Shown here: piece by piece, positions 6,171-36,497 of the stretch | How positions within the stretch are numbered: the first letter of the stretch is position 1 | How the letters are laid out: every line of letters begins with the position of its first letter | Assembly (NCBI GenBank): GCA_022768545.1 | Contig: JALELV010000063.1 | Span: forward strand, 1-52,501 | From: Oscillospiraceae bacterium | GTDB lineage: Bacteria > Bacillota > Clostridia > Oscillospirales > Ruminococcaceae | Direction: 5' to 3' | DNA: 52,501 bases | The notes under the pieces: generated by a model | Databases searched by the model: none | Told to the model about the DNA's origin: nothing | Seen by the model: only the letters and a program-made list of their open reading frames with translations | Translations under genes and position numbers: made by a program

Positions 6171-6467
6171 TCACTTGTCGCTGGTCTTGAGGGTGGGCAG
6201 GATAAATTCCACTTCGTTGTGGGGGCGGGGAATGACGTGGACGGAGACCAGCTCTCCCACCTTGGAGGCGGCCGCGGCGCCCGCGTCGGTGGCGGCTTTG
6301 ACGGCGCCTACATCGCCGCGGACCATGACGGTGACAAGGCCGCCGCCCACATGCACCTTGCCGATAAGGCTGACGTTGGCCGCCTTGACCATGGCATCGG
6401 CGGCCTCGATGGAGCCCACGAGACCTTTCGTTTCGATCATACCCAGAGCCTGCAGAGTTTCTGCCAT
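6171..6467 (-). CDS. eutM: EutM, major hexameric shell protein, copy 2
   Basis: A 98-residue single BMC-domain protein ([20 protein letters not shown] at the start, IPRPHNEVE near the end), the main facet hexamer of the ethanolamine compartment. It is identical in every residue to the upstream copy at 6504-6800; the genes differ at six of 297 bases, all silent, with stop TGA here and TAA there. The 17 bases before the ATG, including the AGGAGG ribosome site, are also the same. A recent tandem duplication or ongoing gene conversion explains this. Confidence 0.96.
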
Positions 6468-6503: not shown

Positions 6504-6800
6504 TTACTTGTCGCTGGTTTTGAGAGTGGGCAGGATAAATTCCACTTCGTTGTGGGGGCGGGGAATGACGTGGACGGAGACCAGCTCTCCCACCTTAGAG
6601 GCGGCCGCGGCGCCCGCGTCGGTGGCGGCTTTGACGGCGCCTACATCGCCGCGGACCATGACGGTGACAAGGCCGCCGCCCACGTGCACCTTGCCGATGA
6701 GGCTGACGTTGGCCGCCTTGACCATGGCATCGGCGGCCTCGATGGAGCCCACGAGACCTTTCGTTTCGATCATACCCAGAGCCTGCAGAGTTTCTGCCAT
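6504..6800 (-). CDS. eutM: EutM, major hexameric shell protein, copy 1
   Basis: The first of two tandem eutM genes, transcribed just after eutE. Sequence and likely role are the same as for the copy at 6171-6467. The 67-base gap before it carries a small CCGC-TTCA-GCGG hairpin followed by a T-rich run on the coding strand, which might act in RNA processing or as a weak attenuator, and a TAGGAGG ribosome site. Confidence 0.96.
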
Positions 6801-6867: not shown

Positions 6868-8361
6868 TCAGGCCCCGCCCAGCCGGGCGATGACCGCCCG
6901 GGTGATGGCCTCGATATCCTCCCGCGTAAAGGGGGTGGGAGAGGTGGGCGCACAGGCGGGGCGGGAGGGCGTGGGTTTTGCGGCGGGGACAGTCCCGCGC
7001 AGGTCCTCCAGTTCCCGGACGCCCCAGGCCACCCGGCGGATGTTGATGAGGTTTAAGGGGGTGATGTTGTCGCTGGTGGCGCTTCCGCCCACGGCGCCGC
7101 AGCCCAGGGTGAGGGCGGGGGCCAGGTTGGTGGTGGCGCCCACGCCGCCCAGGGCGCCGGGGGTGTTCACCAGCAGGCGGGAGACGGGCTTTTTCAGGGC
7201 AAACTCCCGGATGACGTCCATATTCTGGGAGTGGATGGTCATGGTGTGCCCCGCGCCCTCGTTCTGCAGAATGGCGATGGAGCGCTCACAGGCGCTCTCC
7301 CAGCCGTCCTCCACATAGAAGGCCAGCACCGGGCAGAGCTTCTCCCGGGAATAGGGGTTCTGCCGGGAAACTTCCGTCTGCCGGGAGACCAGTACCCGGG
7401 TGCCCGCCGGAATGGAGATGCCTGCCATGTCGGCGATGACCTGGGCGGTCTTCCCCACGATCTTGGGGTTCATGGTACCGTTTGCCCGCAGCAGAAAGCC
7501 GGAGAGCTTTTTGGACTGCTCGTCGGTGAGGAAATACCCGCCCTGGCGGAGCACCTCATCTTCCACCTGCTTTGCAATGCAGCGCTCGGTGACAATGGAC
7601 TGCTCCGAGGCGCAGATGGTGCCGTTATCAAAGGTCTTGCTGTCGAAAATGCGTTTGACGGCCAGAGGGATATCCGCCGTGCGCTCGATGAAGGAGGGGC
7701 CGTTGCCCGGCCCTACCCCGATGGCGGGGTTGCCGGAGCTGTAGGCCGCCCGCACCATGGCCTCTCCGCCGGTGGCGAGGATAACGCCGATATCCCGGTG
7801 GGTGAGCAGGGCGTTGGTGGCCTCCATGGTGGTCAGGCTGATGCACCCCACGGCGCCGTCCGGGGCGCCGGCCCGGCGGGCCGCCTCCTGGATGATCTTC
7901 ACCGTTTCCACGATGCACTTTTTGGCGCCGGGGTGGGGGCTGATGACGATGGAATTGCCCGCCTTGAGGGAGATGATGGATTTGTACATGGCGGTGGAGG
8001 TGGGGTTCGTGGAGGGGATCAGGGCCGCCACCACCCCCATGGGCACGCCGATCTCCATCAGGCCTTTTTCCCGGTCTTCACAGAGGATGCCAGCGGTTTT
8101 CATGTCTTTGACAGAATCCCAGGTAATGGCGCTGCCCAGCAGGTTCTTTAGGGTCTTGTCCTGCCATCGCCCGAAGCCGGTTTCCTCCTCGGCCATTTTG
8201 GCCAGGGGCTCGGCGTGGGCGGCGCAGTCGGCGGCGATGGCGGCGCAGATGTCGTCCAGCTGCCGCTGGCTGAAGGCGGCCAGCTGTTTCTGGGCCGCCT
8301 TGGCCCGGGCGATGAGATCCCGCACCTCCTGAATGGACTGCAGGTCCCGGTCAAGGGTCAT
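6868..8361 (-). CDS. eutE: EutE, CoA-acylating acetaldehyde dehydrogenase
   Basis: The 497-residue aldehyde dehydrogenase oxidises acetaldehyde to acetyl-CoA with NAD+ in the compartment lumen. The catalytic cysteine is C250 in TFDNGTICASEQ; GVGPGNGPSFIE lies just before it. Unlike enterobacterial EutE, the protein starts almost directly with the catalytic domain. It instead ends with a Pro/Thr/Ser-rich linker (about 460-477) and an amphipathic helix, FTREDIEAITRAVIARLGG, resembling an encapsulation peptide moved to the C-terminus. AAAGGAG precedes the ATG. The gene lies between eutL and eutM. Confidence 0.95.
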   Translation of the reverse strand: MTLDRDLQSIQEVRDLIARAKAAQKQLAAFSQRQLDDICAAIAADCAAHAEPLAKMAEEETGFGRWQDKTLKNLLGSAITWDSVKDMKTAGILCEDREKGLMEIGVPMGVVAALIPSTNPTSTAMYKSIISLKAGNSIVISPHPGAKKCIVETVKIIQEAARRAGAPDGAVGCISLTTMEATNALLTHRDIGVILATGGEAMVRAAYSSGNPAIGVGPGNGPSFIERTADIPLAVKRIFDSKTFDNGTICASEQSIVTERCIAKQVEDEVLRQGGYFLTDEQSKKLSGFLLRANGTMNPKIVGKTAQVIADMAGISIPAGTRVLVSRQTEVSRQNPYSREKLCPVLAFYVEDGWESACERSIAILQNEGAGHTMTIHSQNMDVIREFALKKPVSRLLVNTPGALGGVGATTNLAPALTLGCGAVGGSATSDNITPLNLINIRRVAWGVRELEDLRGTVPAAKPTPSRPACAPTSPTPFTREDIEAITRAVIARLGGA

Positions 8362-11409: not shown

Positions 11410-12843
11410 TCAGCCGAAGATCAAAGTTTTAACGACCACCGGGATGACCAGGCCGCCCATCAGCGGCCTGCCGAGGTCGAGAAAATCCCCCTGCTCCACC
11501 CGGATGGAATCCACCGCGATGACCGGCCGGGACGGGGGAAGCAAGCCCTTTAAGGTCTGCCCCAGGGCCTTGGCCATGTCGCTGTGTACCACCAGGATGA
11601 GCGGGAGCCCGGGGGCGAGGGCGGCGTCCAGCGCCGGGCCCGCGGCCCCGGCCAGGGCGCGGAGCTCCCCGTAGGAAGGGCTCTTCTTCCCCTCCATGGC
11701 AAGCACCATCCGGTCGCTGTCGCTCTGGGAGAGAAACCAGCGCACTTTCTTCTCCAGAAAGGCCCGGTCCCCCGAAAAACAGCGCTGCTGTTCCTCGGCG
11801 GAGAGCCTGAGCACGGGGATGTTTTTTAAGGGGAACAGCCCCTCGTCGTAGGCGATGGTGCTGCCGGAGATGGAGGTGGTGTAGGTGCCCGCCCCCACCA
11901 CGGTGGCGCGGATGGTCTCCCGGGCGGGGATGACGTGAAAGGCGGAAAACAGCCTTCCCCGGCGGATAGCGTCCCCCAAGAGGACACCGATATCCCCAAA
12001 GGCCAGCGCGTCCTGCCCGCTGCGGTAGATGCAGTCCGCCACGCCGCCGGAAAAGCACACCGCCCGGATGGGACGGGGCGGGGCAAAGCGGGCGCTGCCC
12101 GGGGTCTCCACCTCCCGCAGGAGGGGGGACGGCTCCGAGAGGCCCAGCATCTCCTCCAATAGCTGCGCCATGGCGGCGCAGAGCGCTTTCAGGGTGTCCG
12201 GGCCCGCCCGCTGCCCGGTTTCCAGGGGAAGGTGGTAAAAGCGGGCGATCTTTTGGGCGCTCCCGCTCAAGTAGGTCACCGTCCAGTCCGGTGCCAGGCG
12301 CACCTGCCGCCCGCCGATATCCACGCAGCCCCGGGCCGCCACCTCCCCATCGCAGAACAGGGCCACGTTGGTAGTGCCGCCGCCGATGTCGAGGTTCACG
12401 GTGGCTTCGCCGGTCTCCTCGGAGTACCGGGCGGCGCCGCTGCCCTTTCCGGCGATGGCGGATTCCAGGTCCGGCCCGGCGGTGGAAACGACGAAATCCC
12501 CGGCAAAGTCGCTGAGCTTTTCCAGCACCAGGGCGGCGTTTTCCTTCCGGGCGGATTCCCCCGTGATGATGACGGCGCCGGTGCCGGTGTCTGCCGGGGT
12601 GACGCCGGCGGCGGCAAACTCCCCTGCCACGATCTCCCGGACGGCGTCGCCGTCGATAAGTGACTGGTCGATCAGCGGAGTGAGGTGGACAGGGCTTTTG
12701 TAGACGACCTCCTTTTCCACGATGGACACCCGGGGAACGGAAAAGTAGCCCGCGGTGTTTTCCATGGTGAGACGGCTGAAAATGACCTGGGTGGTGGAGG
12801 TGCCGATGTCGATGCCCACGCTGAGAACACAGTTTGAGCTCAT
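11410..12843 (-). CDS. eutA: EutA, ammonia-lyase reactivating factor
   Basis: The 477-residue product is an actin/Hsp70-fold ATPase that swaps damaged cobalamin out of EutBC. The phosphate-binding motifs are GIDIGTSTTQ (residues 10-19) and NLDIGGGTTN. The start at 12843 follows GGGGGAGGG; an apparently open upstream extension is only the leader. It is the first gene after the promoter at 13033-13061 and its expression should depend on antitermination in that leader. Confidence 0.95.
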   Translation of the reverse strand: MSSNCVLSVGIDIGTSTTQVIFSRLTMENTAGYFSVPRVSIVEKEVVYKSPVHLTPLIDQSLIDGDAVREIVAGEFAAAGVTPADTGTGAVIITGESARKENAALVLEKLSDFAGDFVVSTAGPDLESAIAGKGSGAARYSEETGEATVNLDIGGGTTNVALFCDGEVAARGCVDIGGRQVRLAPDWTVTYLSGSAQKIARFYHLPLETGQRAGPDTLKALCAAMAQLLEEMLGLSEPSPLLREVETPGSARFAPPRPIRAVCFSGGVADCIYRSGQDALAFGDIGVLLGDAIRRGRLFSAFHVIPARETIRATVVGAGTYTTSISGSTIAYDEGLFPLKNIPVLRLSAEEQQRCFSGDRAFLEKKVRWFLSQSDSDRMVLAMEGKKSPSYGELRALAGAAGPALDAALAPGLPLILVVHSDMAKALGQTLKGLLPPSRPVIAVDSIRVEQGDFLDLGRPLMGGLVIPVVVKTLIFG

Positions 12844-12884
12844 GGACCCTCCCCCCTTTTTTGCCGTGAGTTTTGATAAAAAAC

Positions 12885-12960
12885 AAAAAAGACCTAAAAC
12901 AGCAAAAGCATCCTTGCTGTTTTGGCCTTTTCGCCTGTCGGCGCACCCTGTTGTGCGCCG
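12885..12960 (-). promoter_or_regulatory. EutV-type dual-hairpin attenuator in the eutA leader
   Basis: On the minus-strand RNA a first hairpin has an 8-bp perfect stem (CGGCGCAC/GTGCGCCG, 12939-12960) and the hexaloop AACAGG. About 20 bases later a small hairpin AGC-AAGGAT-GCT (12907-12918) has A at loop position 1 and G at position 4, as in ANTAR targets. It overlaps the 5' arm and loop of a terminator: AAAACAGCAA/TTGCTGTTTT (12896-12923) followed by TTTTTT. This is the known layout for EutV control: binding both small hairpins blocks the terminator. The first loop has G at position 5 instead of 4, so it is not a perfect match. Confidence 0.8.
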
Positions 12961-13032
12961 CGCCTGTTCCTTTTTTAAAAGCGCCGGGAAGCCCCGGAGC
13001 AGAGACAGGGAGAAACCCCTGACACTACTTTT

Positions 13033-13061
13033 ATCATAGCACACTCAGCGCCTGAAGTCAA
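13033..13061 (-). promoter_or_regulatory. Sigma-A promoter of the eutA operon
   Basis: TTGACT and TATGAT with a 17-base spacer on the minus strand; the element overlaps the last codons of eutW. It predicts a leader of about 180 bases carrying the attenuator before eutA. Confidence 0.8.
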
Positions 13062-14109
13062 ACGAGGCCCGCGTCCCGCTCCCGTCGGAGGAGATGTGCA
13101 GCGTGCCCCCCAGCTTTTCCTTTACCGTGAGGGTGACAATGGAGAGCCCCAGGCTCTCCGGGCTGTGGGAGACGGGGTCAAAACCCGCTCCGCTGTCCTC
13201 CACCGTCACGGTGGAAAAGAGCGCCCCGGGGTGCAGCTGCACCCGGATGAGACCGGGTTCCCCCTCCCGAAAACCGTGCTCCAGGGCGTTGGAGAGCAGC
13301 TCGCTTACCACCAAAGCGATGGAGGTGGCTTTGTCCGGCTCCACCGCCATGTCCTCCCCCTCCAGCAAAATCTCCACCGGGCGGCTGTCCCGGAAGAGGG
13401 ACTGAATGCCCCGGAGGACCTTTTCCAGCAGCGGCAGCAGCGCCACGGAGGCTGGGTCATCGGAGCGGGTGAGCAGGTCGTGGATGGCGGCGATGCTCTG
13501 CACCCGGGCGGTGTTTTCCCGGAAGGCCCGGCGCACCTCCTCGTTTTGGGTGCGGCGCGCCTGCAGGTTCAGGATGCTGGCCACCATCTGCAGGTTGTTT
13601 TTCACCCGGTGGTGCACTTCCCGCATGGCGGCGTCCGTCTCCGCAAGGGGCCGGGCGGGGGAAAGCTCCTCCCGCTCCCGGGCAAGCTCCCGGTACTTTT
13701 TCTCGCGGCTCAAGTCCCGGGTGACGTCCCGTTCCAGGATAAGCACCGCCAGGACCTGTCCGCCCTCCCCTTTCACCGGTACCACATCCTGCCGGACGGT
13801 GCGGTTTTCCTGGGTGACAGCTTTCAGGTCCCGCACCGGCATCCCCTCTTCCGCGGCGCGGTAGACGGCGGGCTCGTTTTCCCGGCGGGCGGGGCGGCCC
13901 ACCACCCTTTCCCGGTAGGAGGAGCTTTCCAGCCCCGGCCCCGCCTGGGCGGCCACCCAGGCCATGCCGTCCGGGTCAAAAAGGTCGATGAACACGTCGG
14001 CGGCGCAGAGCTCTGCCGTGAGGGGAAGGTCCTCCTCCAGCCGTTCCAGCCGGGCGGTCTCCTCCCCGGAAAGGGCCCCGTGCAGGGCGCATACCTCCCG
14101 CAGTGTCAC
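13045..14109 (-). CDS. eutW: EutW, ethanolamine sensor histidine kinase
   Basis: The 354-residue soluble kinase has an N-terminal GAF/PAS-like sensor region (about 1-130), a HisKA_2 dimerisation region with HHRVKNNLQ (phosphate-accepting His167) and a C-terminal ATPase domain (SELLSNALEH, VEDSGAGFDP). No membrane segments are seen, so it senses a cytosolic signal, by family ethanolamine. It starts with GTG overlapping the eutV stop (GTGA), so the pair is translationally coupled. It phosphorylates EutV. Confidence 0.92.
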   Translation of the reverse strand: MTLREVCALHGALSGEETARLERLEEDLPLTAELCAADVFIDLFDPDGMAWVAAQAGPGLESSSYRERVVGRPARRENEPAVYRAAEEGMPVRDLKAVTQENRTVRQDVVPVKGEGGQVLAVLILERDVTRDLSREKKYRELAREREELSPARPLAETDAAMREVHHRVKNNLQMVASILNLQARRTQNEEVRRAFRENTARVQSIAAIHDLLTRSDDPASVALLPLLEKVLRGIQSLFRDSRPVEILLEGEDMAVEPDKATSIALVVSELLSNALEHGFREGEPGLIRVQLHPGALFSTVTVEDSGAGFDPVSHSPESLGLSIVTLTVKEKLGGTLHISSDGSGTRASFDFRR

Positions 14110-14834
14110 AGGGCCTCCCTCCCTTCCAGGATCTCCCGGGCAGCCTGCTCCAGGTCCAGGCCCTTTTTCCGGGCCAGAGCCTGCACCGCCTGATAGGCGG
14201 CGGGTTCCGACATGCCCCGGCGCTCCATCAGCAGGGTTTTGGCGCGGTTGACAAGCTCCCGCCGGGAGCTCTTTTCCACCACGGCCCGCGCCAGATACAC
14301 AAGGGAGCAGCGCTTGTCCATGGCCATGTGTTGCAGCTGGGCCAGGGCCTGTGCCTCCCCGATCCCCTTCTCCGCCGCCAGAATGGCCTTAGCGCGGTCG
14401 ATGAGGTCCCGGTCCTTCAGGCGGCGGCGGGCCTCGGCGGTCTCCTGCCGGGCCTGGGCCAGGCGCCTGGACTGAGCCAGGGCAACTTCGATGGTGGGCA
14501 GCAGGAGCCGCTCCTCAATGGGCTTTACCAGGTATCCCGTGACCCCCACTGCCCCGGCCCGGTCGATGAGCTCCCGGTCCGCGAAGGCGGTGACCACCAC
14601 CACACAACCCGCCAGATCCTCCTCCACAATGGTCTGGGCGGCGCCCAGACCCTCAAAAACGGGCATGGAGAGATCCATCAGAACCACGTCGGGGCGGCGG
14701 GCGCGGCAGAGCTCCACCGCGTCGAACCCGTCCGCGGCGCTGCCCAGCACCTCGAAGCCCAGCTCCTCCAGCATCTGGGAAAGATCCATGCGGATGATCG
14801 GTTCGTCATCCGCCACTATGGCTGTCCGGCTCAT
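14106..14834 (-). CDS. eutV: EutV, response regulator with two ANTAR domains
   Basis: The 242-residue antiterminator has a receiver domain (residues 1-118, Asp54 in VLMDLSMP, Lys104), a coiled linker and an ANTAR RNA-binding domain at about 139-189 (DLIDRAKAILAAEKGIGEA) that aligns to the whole output domain of ordinary EutV proteins (about 190 residues). A second ANTAR-like repeat follows at 192-238 (ELVNRAKTLLMERRGMSE). The two repeats align without gaps over 46 positions. Phosphorylated EutV normally dimerises so that each ANTAR binds one of two RNA hairpins; here one chain could bind both. The target should be the leader at 12885-12960. Confidence 0.93.
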   Translation of the reverse strand: MSRTAIVADDEPIIRMDLSQMLEELGFEVLGSAADGFDAVELCRARRPDVVLMDLSMPVFEGLGAAQTIVEEDLAGCVVVVTAFADRELIDRAGAVGVTGYLVKPIEERLLLPTIEVALAQSRRLAQARQETAEARRRLKDRDLIDRAKAILAAEKGIGEAQALAQLQHMAMDKRCSLVYLARAVVEKSSRRELVNRAKTLLMERRGMSEPAAYQAVQALARKKGLDLEQAAREILEGREAL

Positions 14835-36059: not shown

Positions 36060-36497
36060 ATGCTTTTACAGATCAAACGGCTGCGCCCGGGGGCGGCGCT
36101 GCCCCGGACGGCCACGGCCGGCAGCGCGGGGTATGACCTTACCGCCTGTACCGAGCAGCCGGTGGAGATCCCGCCCGGGGAGACCCGGAGCATTCCCACC
36201 GGTATCGCCATTGCCCTGCCCTCCCCGGAATGGGGGGCTTTCATCTTTGCCCGCAGCGGCCTGGGGGTGAAAAAGGGTATCGTCCCCGGAAACTGCGTGG
36301 GGGTCATCGATTCCGACTACCGGGGGGAAATTTTAGTGGGCCTTCACAACCATTCCCGGGAGCCCTACACAGTGCTGCCTGGGGACCGTATTGCCCAGAT
36401 GGTGCTGCTGCCGGTGGGGCGCTTTGATATAGAGGAGCGGGAGGAGCTTGACGGCACCGCCCGCGGCGAGGGGGGCTTCGGCTCCACCAGCCGGTGA
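36060..36497 (+). CDS. dut: dUTP pyrophosphatase
   Basis: The 145-residue trimeric dUTPase hydrolyses dUTP to dUMP and keeps uracil out of DNA. All five motifs are seen: AGYDLTA, ARSGLGVKKG, GVIDSDYRGEI, GDRIAQMVL and the C-terminal GEGGFGSTSR. GGGGAGGA precedes the ATG. It opens a dut-DUF4321-maf group. Confidence 0.96.
   Translation: MLLQIKRLRPGAALPRTATAGSAGYDLTACTEQPVEIPPGETRSIPTGIAIALPSPEWGAFIFARSGLGVKKGIVPGNCVGVIDSDYRGEILVGLHNHSREPYTVLPGDRIAQMVLLPVGRFDIEEREELDGTARGEGGFGSTSR

Follow-up and report, generated by a model that had tools for sequence, protein, structure and literature searches.

The closest described system is EutV of E. faecalis (PDB 6wsh, 6ww6; PMC8934654, PMC3369931), which, in the available portions of those papers, has one ANTAR domain, target loops with G at position 4 (G4) and a complete pocket of R142, K149, E160 and Y164. 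According to the accessible text of PMC8934654, Y164 stacks on loop G4 while R142, K149 and E160 bond with it, M172 serves as the plug of the loop, and the backbone is clamped by N173, R175 and R177. The same text reports that RNA binding is abolished by M172A and by N173A/R175A/R177A, and is brought down 60 and 55 fold by E160A and Y164A, respectively. On the RNA side, a change of loop G4 to A in either hairpin lowers induction in E. faecalis (accessible part of PMC3369931). The ANTAR targets described in the available sections of PMC3369931 and PMC8164766 have, like the leader studied here, two short hexaloop hairpins with a conserved A at position 1 (A1) and a short linker, but G4 where this leader has A (A4). 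In the 2012 search model for ANTAR targets the fourth loop base was retained as G, and A4 targets were therefore disfavoured by design (PMC3369931, as far as its accessible text goes). In actinobacterial targets A1 and G4 are over 50% conserved and more variation was allowed, so that loops lacking G4 are in themselves not without precedent (PMC8164766, available sections). ANTAR domains are marked by conserved alanines and an aromatic residue, and 17 ANTAR architectures are reported, among which a double-ANTAR entry may figure (PMC3369931, accessible part). The phrase 'two ANTAR domains' in the available text of PMC8934654 refers to the two chains of a dimer.

The present locus lies in a stretch of 52,501 nt that was analysed whole (hereafter the window; contig JALELV010000063.1 of assembly GCA_022768545.1, an Oscillospiraceae bacterium). 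Its EutV differs from that of E. faecalis in an extra ANTAR domain (ANTAR2) without plug and clamp, in Leu164 in the first domain (ANTAR1) and in the A4 loops of its leader; R142, K149, E160, Y164, M172 and R175 follow E. faecalis EutV numbering throughout. To our knowledge Rv1626 (PdtaR) of Mycobacterium tuberculosis is not known as a eut regulator, and AmiR, NasR and PAL have other sensor domains and one ANTAR domain each. Rv1626 (PDB 1s8n; match of 140.5 bits) likewise joins a receiver to an ANTAR domain, the nearest structure to ANTAR2 alone, but has one such domain against two in the window EutV. AmiR, NasR and PAL (PDB 1qo0, 4akk, 6hmj) share the ANTAR fold and are also matched by ANTAR2 alone.

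Two ANTAR domains in the EutV of an ethanolamine operon

The gene, its domains and its neighbours are given below. The eut gene names downstream of eutV were assigned by Pfam and NCBIfam profiles, and the kinase is called EutW from its position beside eutV.

14106..14834, minus strand: eutV-like gene, receiver + ANTAR1 + ANTAR2, 242 aa
Residues 6-114 of the eutV-like protein: receiver, PF00072, 84 bits (Pfam)
14277..14435, minus strand: ANTAR1, PF03861, residues 134-186, 56.8 bits, E 4.3e-15 (genome profile search)
14127..14267, minus strand: ANTAR2, PF03861, residues 190-236, 46.2 bits, E 9.1e-12 (genome profile search)
13045..14109, minus strand: eutW-like sensor kinase with GAF_PdtaS, HisKA_2 and HATPase_c
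11410..12843, minus strand: eutA-like gene, ATG at 12843, first gene after the leader, PF06277, 562.5 bits
9985..11361, minus strand: eutB-like gene, PF06751, 696.6 bits
9089..10003, minus strand, start approximate: eutC-like gene, PF05985, 291.2 bits
8418..9068, minus strand, start approximate: eutL-like shell gene, TIGR04502, 347.1 bits (cut-off 300)
6868..8361, minus strand: acylating acetaldehyde dehydrogenase, eutE-like, TIGR02518, 764.2 bits (cut-off 620.1)

The GTG start of the eutW-like gene overlaps the eutV stop codon. Since the kinase gene, eutA, eutB, eutC, eutL and the acetaldehyde dehydrogenase gene come after eutV in the same orientation, the protein is the EutV of an ethanolamine operon.

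The window EutV, which aligns with E. faecalis EutV without gaps, is confirmed to carry two true ANTAR domains. Two separate stretches of the chain match PF03861 in Pfam, and the last 54 residues searched alone still score 47.2 bits. The original prediction, which gave no strand, had put the repeats at 139-189 and 192-238 and the end of an ordinary EutV at about 190 residues. Both statements held: the two matches are separate and significant (56.8 and 46.2 bits, against a curated cut-off of 27.3 bits applied to each repeat by itself) with closely similar boundaries, and among the best 80 of 517 loci in a scan of named genomes (23 double-ANTAR, 57 others) 56 of the 57 non-doubles were 184-199 aa long. 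The same prediction would have failed had the tail been an unrelated fold; instead, structure prediction gives the tail an ANTAR fold. The AlphaFold2 model of the whole chain has a mean pLDDT of 94, and in it one long helix joins ANTAR1 to ANTAR2, continuing to residue 206 and followed by helices at 210-224 and 228-237 in what is predicted to be a three-helix ANTAR fold. Modelled alone, ANTAR2 reaches a pLDDT of 91.6 and matches solved ANTAR proteins first; its top Foldseek matches are Rv1626, EutV, AmiR and NasR at a probability of 1.00 and a TM of 0.82-0.85 on the query, with weak E-values (best 7e-3). In the literature searched, by titles and abstract openings, neither a double-ANTAR protein nor an A4 target was found described, in agreement with the earlier statement that no such described EutV was known.

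The leader RNA before eutA

A pair of hairpins, P1 and P2, is located between eutW and eutA and overlaps a terminator.

12940..12959, minus strand: P1 hairpin of the eutA leader, loop 12952-12947, GGCGCAC-AACAGG-GTGCGCC, with A4, G5 and G6
12924..12935, minus strand: P2 hairpin of the eutA leader, loop 12932-12927, GGC-GAAAAG-GCC, with A4 and G1
12885..12927, minus strand: intrinsic terminator before eutA, a stem-loop followed by six T

The 5′ arm of the terminator takes in the 3′ arm of P2, and the leader RNA (12880-12965) has a minimum free energy of -41 kcal/mol (z -5.2). The E. faecalis-type combination of A1 and G4 in both loops is not seen in this leader (P1 AACAGG, P2 GAAAAG). A scan of both window strands gave one credible P1-P2 pair, that before eutA, and no four-hairpin target; a second, weaker match near 36100 on the minus strand was taken as chance. 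Rfam gave nothing at the gathering cut-off in the window, and a search of the leader stayed empty even with E-values up to 1 allowed. A P2 candidate within the terminator, AGC-AAGGAT-GCT, was rejected, as relatives show a conserved hexaloop hairpin just upstream.

RNA-contact residues of the two domains

In the window protein, ANTAR1 keeps R142, K149, E160, M172 and R175 and has Leu for Y164, as does the neighbouring L036. ANTAR2 keeps the equivalents of R142, K149, E160 and Y164, with M172 replaced by Arg and R175 by Gly. A protein search with the window EutV gave 1937 relatives, and 120 listed among the matches, of 233-257 aa, were aligned with the query. Across these 121 rows ANTAR1 has M172, R175 and E160 throughout (121/121 each), Tyr at 164 in 109 and R142 in only 6. 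The ANTAR2 column of K149 is filled in 120 of the same 121 rows and holds lysine in 119; E160 is found in 109 (plus Asp in 10), Y or F at 164 in 111 and R142 in 93, while M172 occurs in 0/121 and R175 in 2/121. ANTAR2 equivalents of the conserved alanines are frequent in this alignment of relatives among the matches listed (A163 99%, A182 95%, A171 85%, A148 83%). An alignment restricted to the C-terminal part was nevertheless too variable to serve as a query against genomes. The receiver of the window protein has D54, T82 and K104, and D54 is kept in all 121 rows.

Because M172 and R175 are both absent, ANTAR2 is unlikely, judged by these residues, to hold a hexaloop in the usual ANTAR manner. 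Single-ANTAR EutVs without both residues had no hairpin pair before eutA in 14 of 14 loci (L099, L102, L104, L107, L113, L134-L138, L164, L198, L200, where the gap is only 109 nt, and L203); five more such proteins (L139, L166, L167, L168, L207), on stretches without eutA, stand outside this count. L201 and L202, which have lost R175 alone, keep a G4 pair, and this speaks against a simple rule.

Distribution and phylogeny of double-ANTAR EutVs

Among 119 genomes of the family searched with Pfam, 5 have a double-ANTAR protein, and all five genes adjoin eut genes. With E up to 1e-40, a double-ANTAR EutV was present in 11/396 genomes of the family, 4/295 of the order and 3/391 of the class, where the window's own genome is counted each time and the draws overlap. 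The double-ANTAR loci among the best 80 of 517 include Angelakisella massiliensis, [Clostridium] symbiosum and a Synergistaceae MAG. A match to the window EutW lies downstream on the same strand in all 80 of these best loci, and eutA or eutB is also visible on the fetched stretch in 16 of the 23 double-ANTAR ones.

A tree of receiver and ANTAR1 was built from loci among the best 80 of 517. Its 81 rows comprise 24 double-ANTAR proteins, 13 single-ANTAR proteins termed near singles and 44 termed far singles (43 loci and E. faecalis EutV). The double-ANTAR proteins and near singles together form one side of a 100/99 branch, opposite the far singles. Within their side of the branch, the near singles fall among the double-ANTAR rows; a concatenated EutV-W-A-B tree (39 rows, quick method) places them likewise, as one group with a support of 27. 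The double-ANTAR EutVs form a clade, mostly of Clostridia, and the simplest history is a single gain of ANTAR2 followed by at least one loss. L075 (Fournierella massiliensis), whose eutV belongs to the double-ANTAR lineage and has an A4 hairpin pair close by, was left out of trees and groups because its reading frame is disturbed, with part of ANTAR1 seemingly missing. L169 (genome G012), of the same lineage, likewise has a disturbed frame and an ANTAR1 that seems partly missing. The Synergistaceae MAG (L041) carries its double-ANTAR eut operon inside the Clostridia clade, a placement that suggests horizontal transfer or a mis-binned contig.

The G4 pocket of ANTAR1 differs between these groups. 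For the same loci (from the best 80 of 517), R142 is present in 44/44 far singles, 0/13 near singles and 3/24 double-ANTAR proteins, and K149 in 44/44, 0/13 and 16/24, respectively; the near singles have S142 in 11/13 and Q149 in 12/13. In every clade row with a known leader the ANTAR1 pocket is broken, by loss of R142 and/or K149 or by Y164 to Leu. One double-ANTAR protein, L042, has a complete ANTAR1 pocket; its contig does not include the leader. For ANTAR2, dN/dS by a simple counting method was below 1 in 6/6 pairs (range 0.01 to 0.61); two of the six are loosely constrained (about 0.5 and 0.6), and the value exceeds that of the receiver in 3 of the 5 pairs for which both could be computed.

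Loop sequences across relatives

The eutW-eutA gaps of these loci were scanned with a descriptor in which the fourth loop base could be any nucleotide. What it did prescribe was A1 in P1, A or G as the first loop base of P2, C-G closing pairs, a T-run, the linker and the stem lengths. L053 was represented by the sequence leading up to a distant eutA; L054 and L061 have no eutA match, and there the scan covered the part after eutW that had given a pair in an earlier scan. A pair was found in 59 of 73 stretches (19/20 double-ANTAR, 11/12 near, 29/41 far), the scan giving none in the double-ANTAR L038, the near single L072 and 12 of the 41 far singles. Scores of at least 14 were reached by 58/73 real stretches versus 1/1480 mononucleotide-shuffled ones.

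Far singles have G4 in 29/29 P1 and 29/29 P2 loops. Double-ANTAR leaders have A4 in 18/19 P1 and 16/19 P2, and near singles in 8/11 P1 and 11/11 P2. The exceptions to A4 are G4 in P1 of L063, L052, L055 and L057, G4 in P2 of L037 and L118, and T4 in P2 of L050. A closer inspection of L050 indicates that the scanned pair (P1 AAAAGG, P2 ATGTCT) is probably mis-registered, AATAGG and AAAAGG fitting better by eye; it was counted as scanned and omitted from the covariation alignment. The same A4/G4 split was obtained without the closing-pair rule. Both hairpins covary. In an alignment of 18 double-ANTAR rows with 11 near ones, changes on both sides were seen in 7 of 9 pairs, and the covariation score was 0.544 versus 0.223 when shuffled; the percentage paired is not evidence here, because rows were picked for forming hairpins.

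The same descriptor was applied to a later set of 39 further stretches from later genome searches, 10 of which are copies of earlier loci. The remaining 29 comprise 9 without eutA on the stretch, 11 without a pair and 9 with one. The two later double-ANTAR leaders (L157, L161) have A4 in both hairpins and P1 AACAGG, and the seven later far singles have G4 in 14/14 loops. Of the resulting 68 rows, 36 have a complete pocket (R142, K149, E160, Y or F164), and 36/36 of these show G4 in P1 and P2 alike. Where the pocket is broken, in the double-ANTAR clade and its single-domain descendants, A4 is found in 28/32 P1 and 29/32 P2. The pocket changed once on the tree (one independent pair), so that the A4 switch is a single evolutionary event and its link to the ANTAR1 residues is inseparable from shared descent. 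Moreover, as near singles carry A4 without ANTAR2, the second domain is not needed for A4.

The end of the P1 loop follows ANTAR2. G5 and a purine end the P1 loop in 21/21 double-ANTAR leaders, 0/11 near singles and 3/36 far singles, i.e. in 3/47 leaders without ANTAR2. The closest double-ANTAR relatives of the near singles (L045, L047, L051, L054, L058, L066) keep this ending. On the tree three supported independent pairs bear on the association, of which 2.9 on average agree and none disagree, a number too small to reach significance (p at least 0.25). P2 position 6 does not split by group, being a purine in 18/19 double-ANTAR, 11/11 near and 28/29 far leaders. An altered hairpin spacing in double-ANTAR leaders was considered and rejected; linkers are alike in the three groups (mean 7.9 nt in double-ANTAR versus 7.9 in far and 8.5 in near singles).

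Proposed mechanism and alternatives

Our preferred reading, to which we give about even odds (roughly 0.5), is that the double-ANTAR EutV turns on the eut genes through the A4 double hairpin before eutA, with ANTAR1 clamping the RNA and ANTAR2 helping to hold the P1 guanine. By homology with E. faecalis EutV, EutW would phosphorylate D54, the phosphorylated protein would dimerise, and the ANTAR domains of the dimer would catch P1 and then P2, so that the terminator could not form. ANTAR1, changed to accept A4, would clamp both hairpins. ANTAR2, carried with it on one long predicted helix, may be an asymmetric helper at P1, its guanine pocket meeting the invariant P1 G5 and the following purine. 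Where ANTAR2 has been lost, in the near singles, the G5-purine end of P1 is gone and A4 is mostly retained. We keep an RNA role for ANTAR2 because the P1 loop sequences suggest one at P1. That the clade uses a changed protein-RNA recognition code, with A4 in place of G4, is likely from the joint pattern of residues and loops; the window ANTAR1, its pocket broken by Y164L alone with R142 and K149 present, counts against recoding. A stronger version, in which ANTAR1 reads A4 and the plugless, clampless ANTAR2 became a dedicated reader of P1 G5, giving an asymmetric two-part reader after duplication, is put forward tentatively.

The main rival keeps ANTAR2 off the RNA: packed against ANTAR1, it would serve dimerisation or autoinhibition, and ANTAR1 alone would read the recoded hairpins. 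We regard this as rather unlikely, although several points fit it: ANTAR2 has neither plug nor clamp, one helix joins both domains in the AlphaFold2 model, near singles that lost ANTAR2 mostly still have A4 leaders, and singles without M172 and R175 show no such leader (0/14). However, K149, E160 and Y/F164 of the guanine pocket are nearly always kept in ANTAR2, with R142 in 93/121 (relatives among the matches listed), and P1 loops shift with its presence (21/21 versus 3/47). The original prediction had suggested that one chain could grip both hairpins alone, with a changed need for phosphorylation, or a dimer four hairpins; in the form weighed here, both domains are full RNA binders and the need for phosphorylation is eased. 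Both domains do lie above the Pfam cut-off and the P1 loop end does track ANTAR2, but the idea of two like domains on one chain does not sit with an ANTAR2 that is without M172 in 121/121 and without R175 in 119/121 rows (relatives among the matches listed), changes of a kind that abolish binding in E. faecalis EutV (PMC8934654, accessible part). Nor does the four-hairpin dimer agree with a eutA leader that holds one P1-P2 pair at ordinary spacing, as do the other leaders, whose mean linker is ordinary. D54 is invariant. Two full binders therefore appear improbable.

Two further accounts concern the loops themselves. A4 could be the by-product of a relaxed reader, the ANTAR1 of the clade having lost its base-4 contacts and the base having drifted, and the variability of R142 and K149 in double-domain ANTAR1 and the few loops with G4 or T4 are in keeping with this. 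Yet the broken-pocket rows have A at position 4 in 57 of 64 loops and not a mixture, and the near singles share S142 (11/13) and Q149 (12/13), so this account seems unlikely. That the scan itself produced the loop pattern is very improbable. The descriptor did demand a T-run, C-G closing pairs and A1 in P1, rows in which no hairpins formed were dropped, and the L054 and L061 stretches were chosen from the site of a pair in an earlier scan; but position 4 was free, shuffles gave 1/1480, the split persists without the closing-pair rule, the hairpins covary and later loci agree.

On the preferred reading, natural A4 leaders pair with matching reader changes and an extra ANTAR domain in mostly Clostridial EutVs. 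Searches that insist on G4 would miss such targets. The clade offers natural variants for testing how ANTAR domains choose RNA, why both P1 and P2 are needed, and what a second ANTAR domain contributes.

Additional loci

The genome of the window has a second ANTAR gene (L120, G000:C27:10190-10759), directly behind a glutamine synthetase gene, which encodes 189 aa with a receiver and one ANTAR domain; no dual hexaloop was found in 19.9 kb around it. In genome G980 (loci L189 and L195) a double-ANTAR EutV on C292 exists alongside an ordinary single-ANTAR one on C185, the latter with a G4 leader, so that cross-talk could be studied there in a natural setting. In the window, 6171-6467 and 6504-6800 on the minus strand are head-to-tail genes for the same 98-aa protein, with 300-nt DNA copies that are 98% identical; the protein presumably resembles a microcompartment shell protein.
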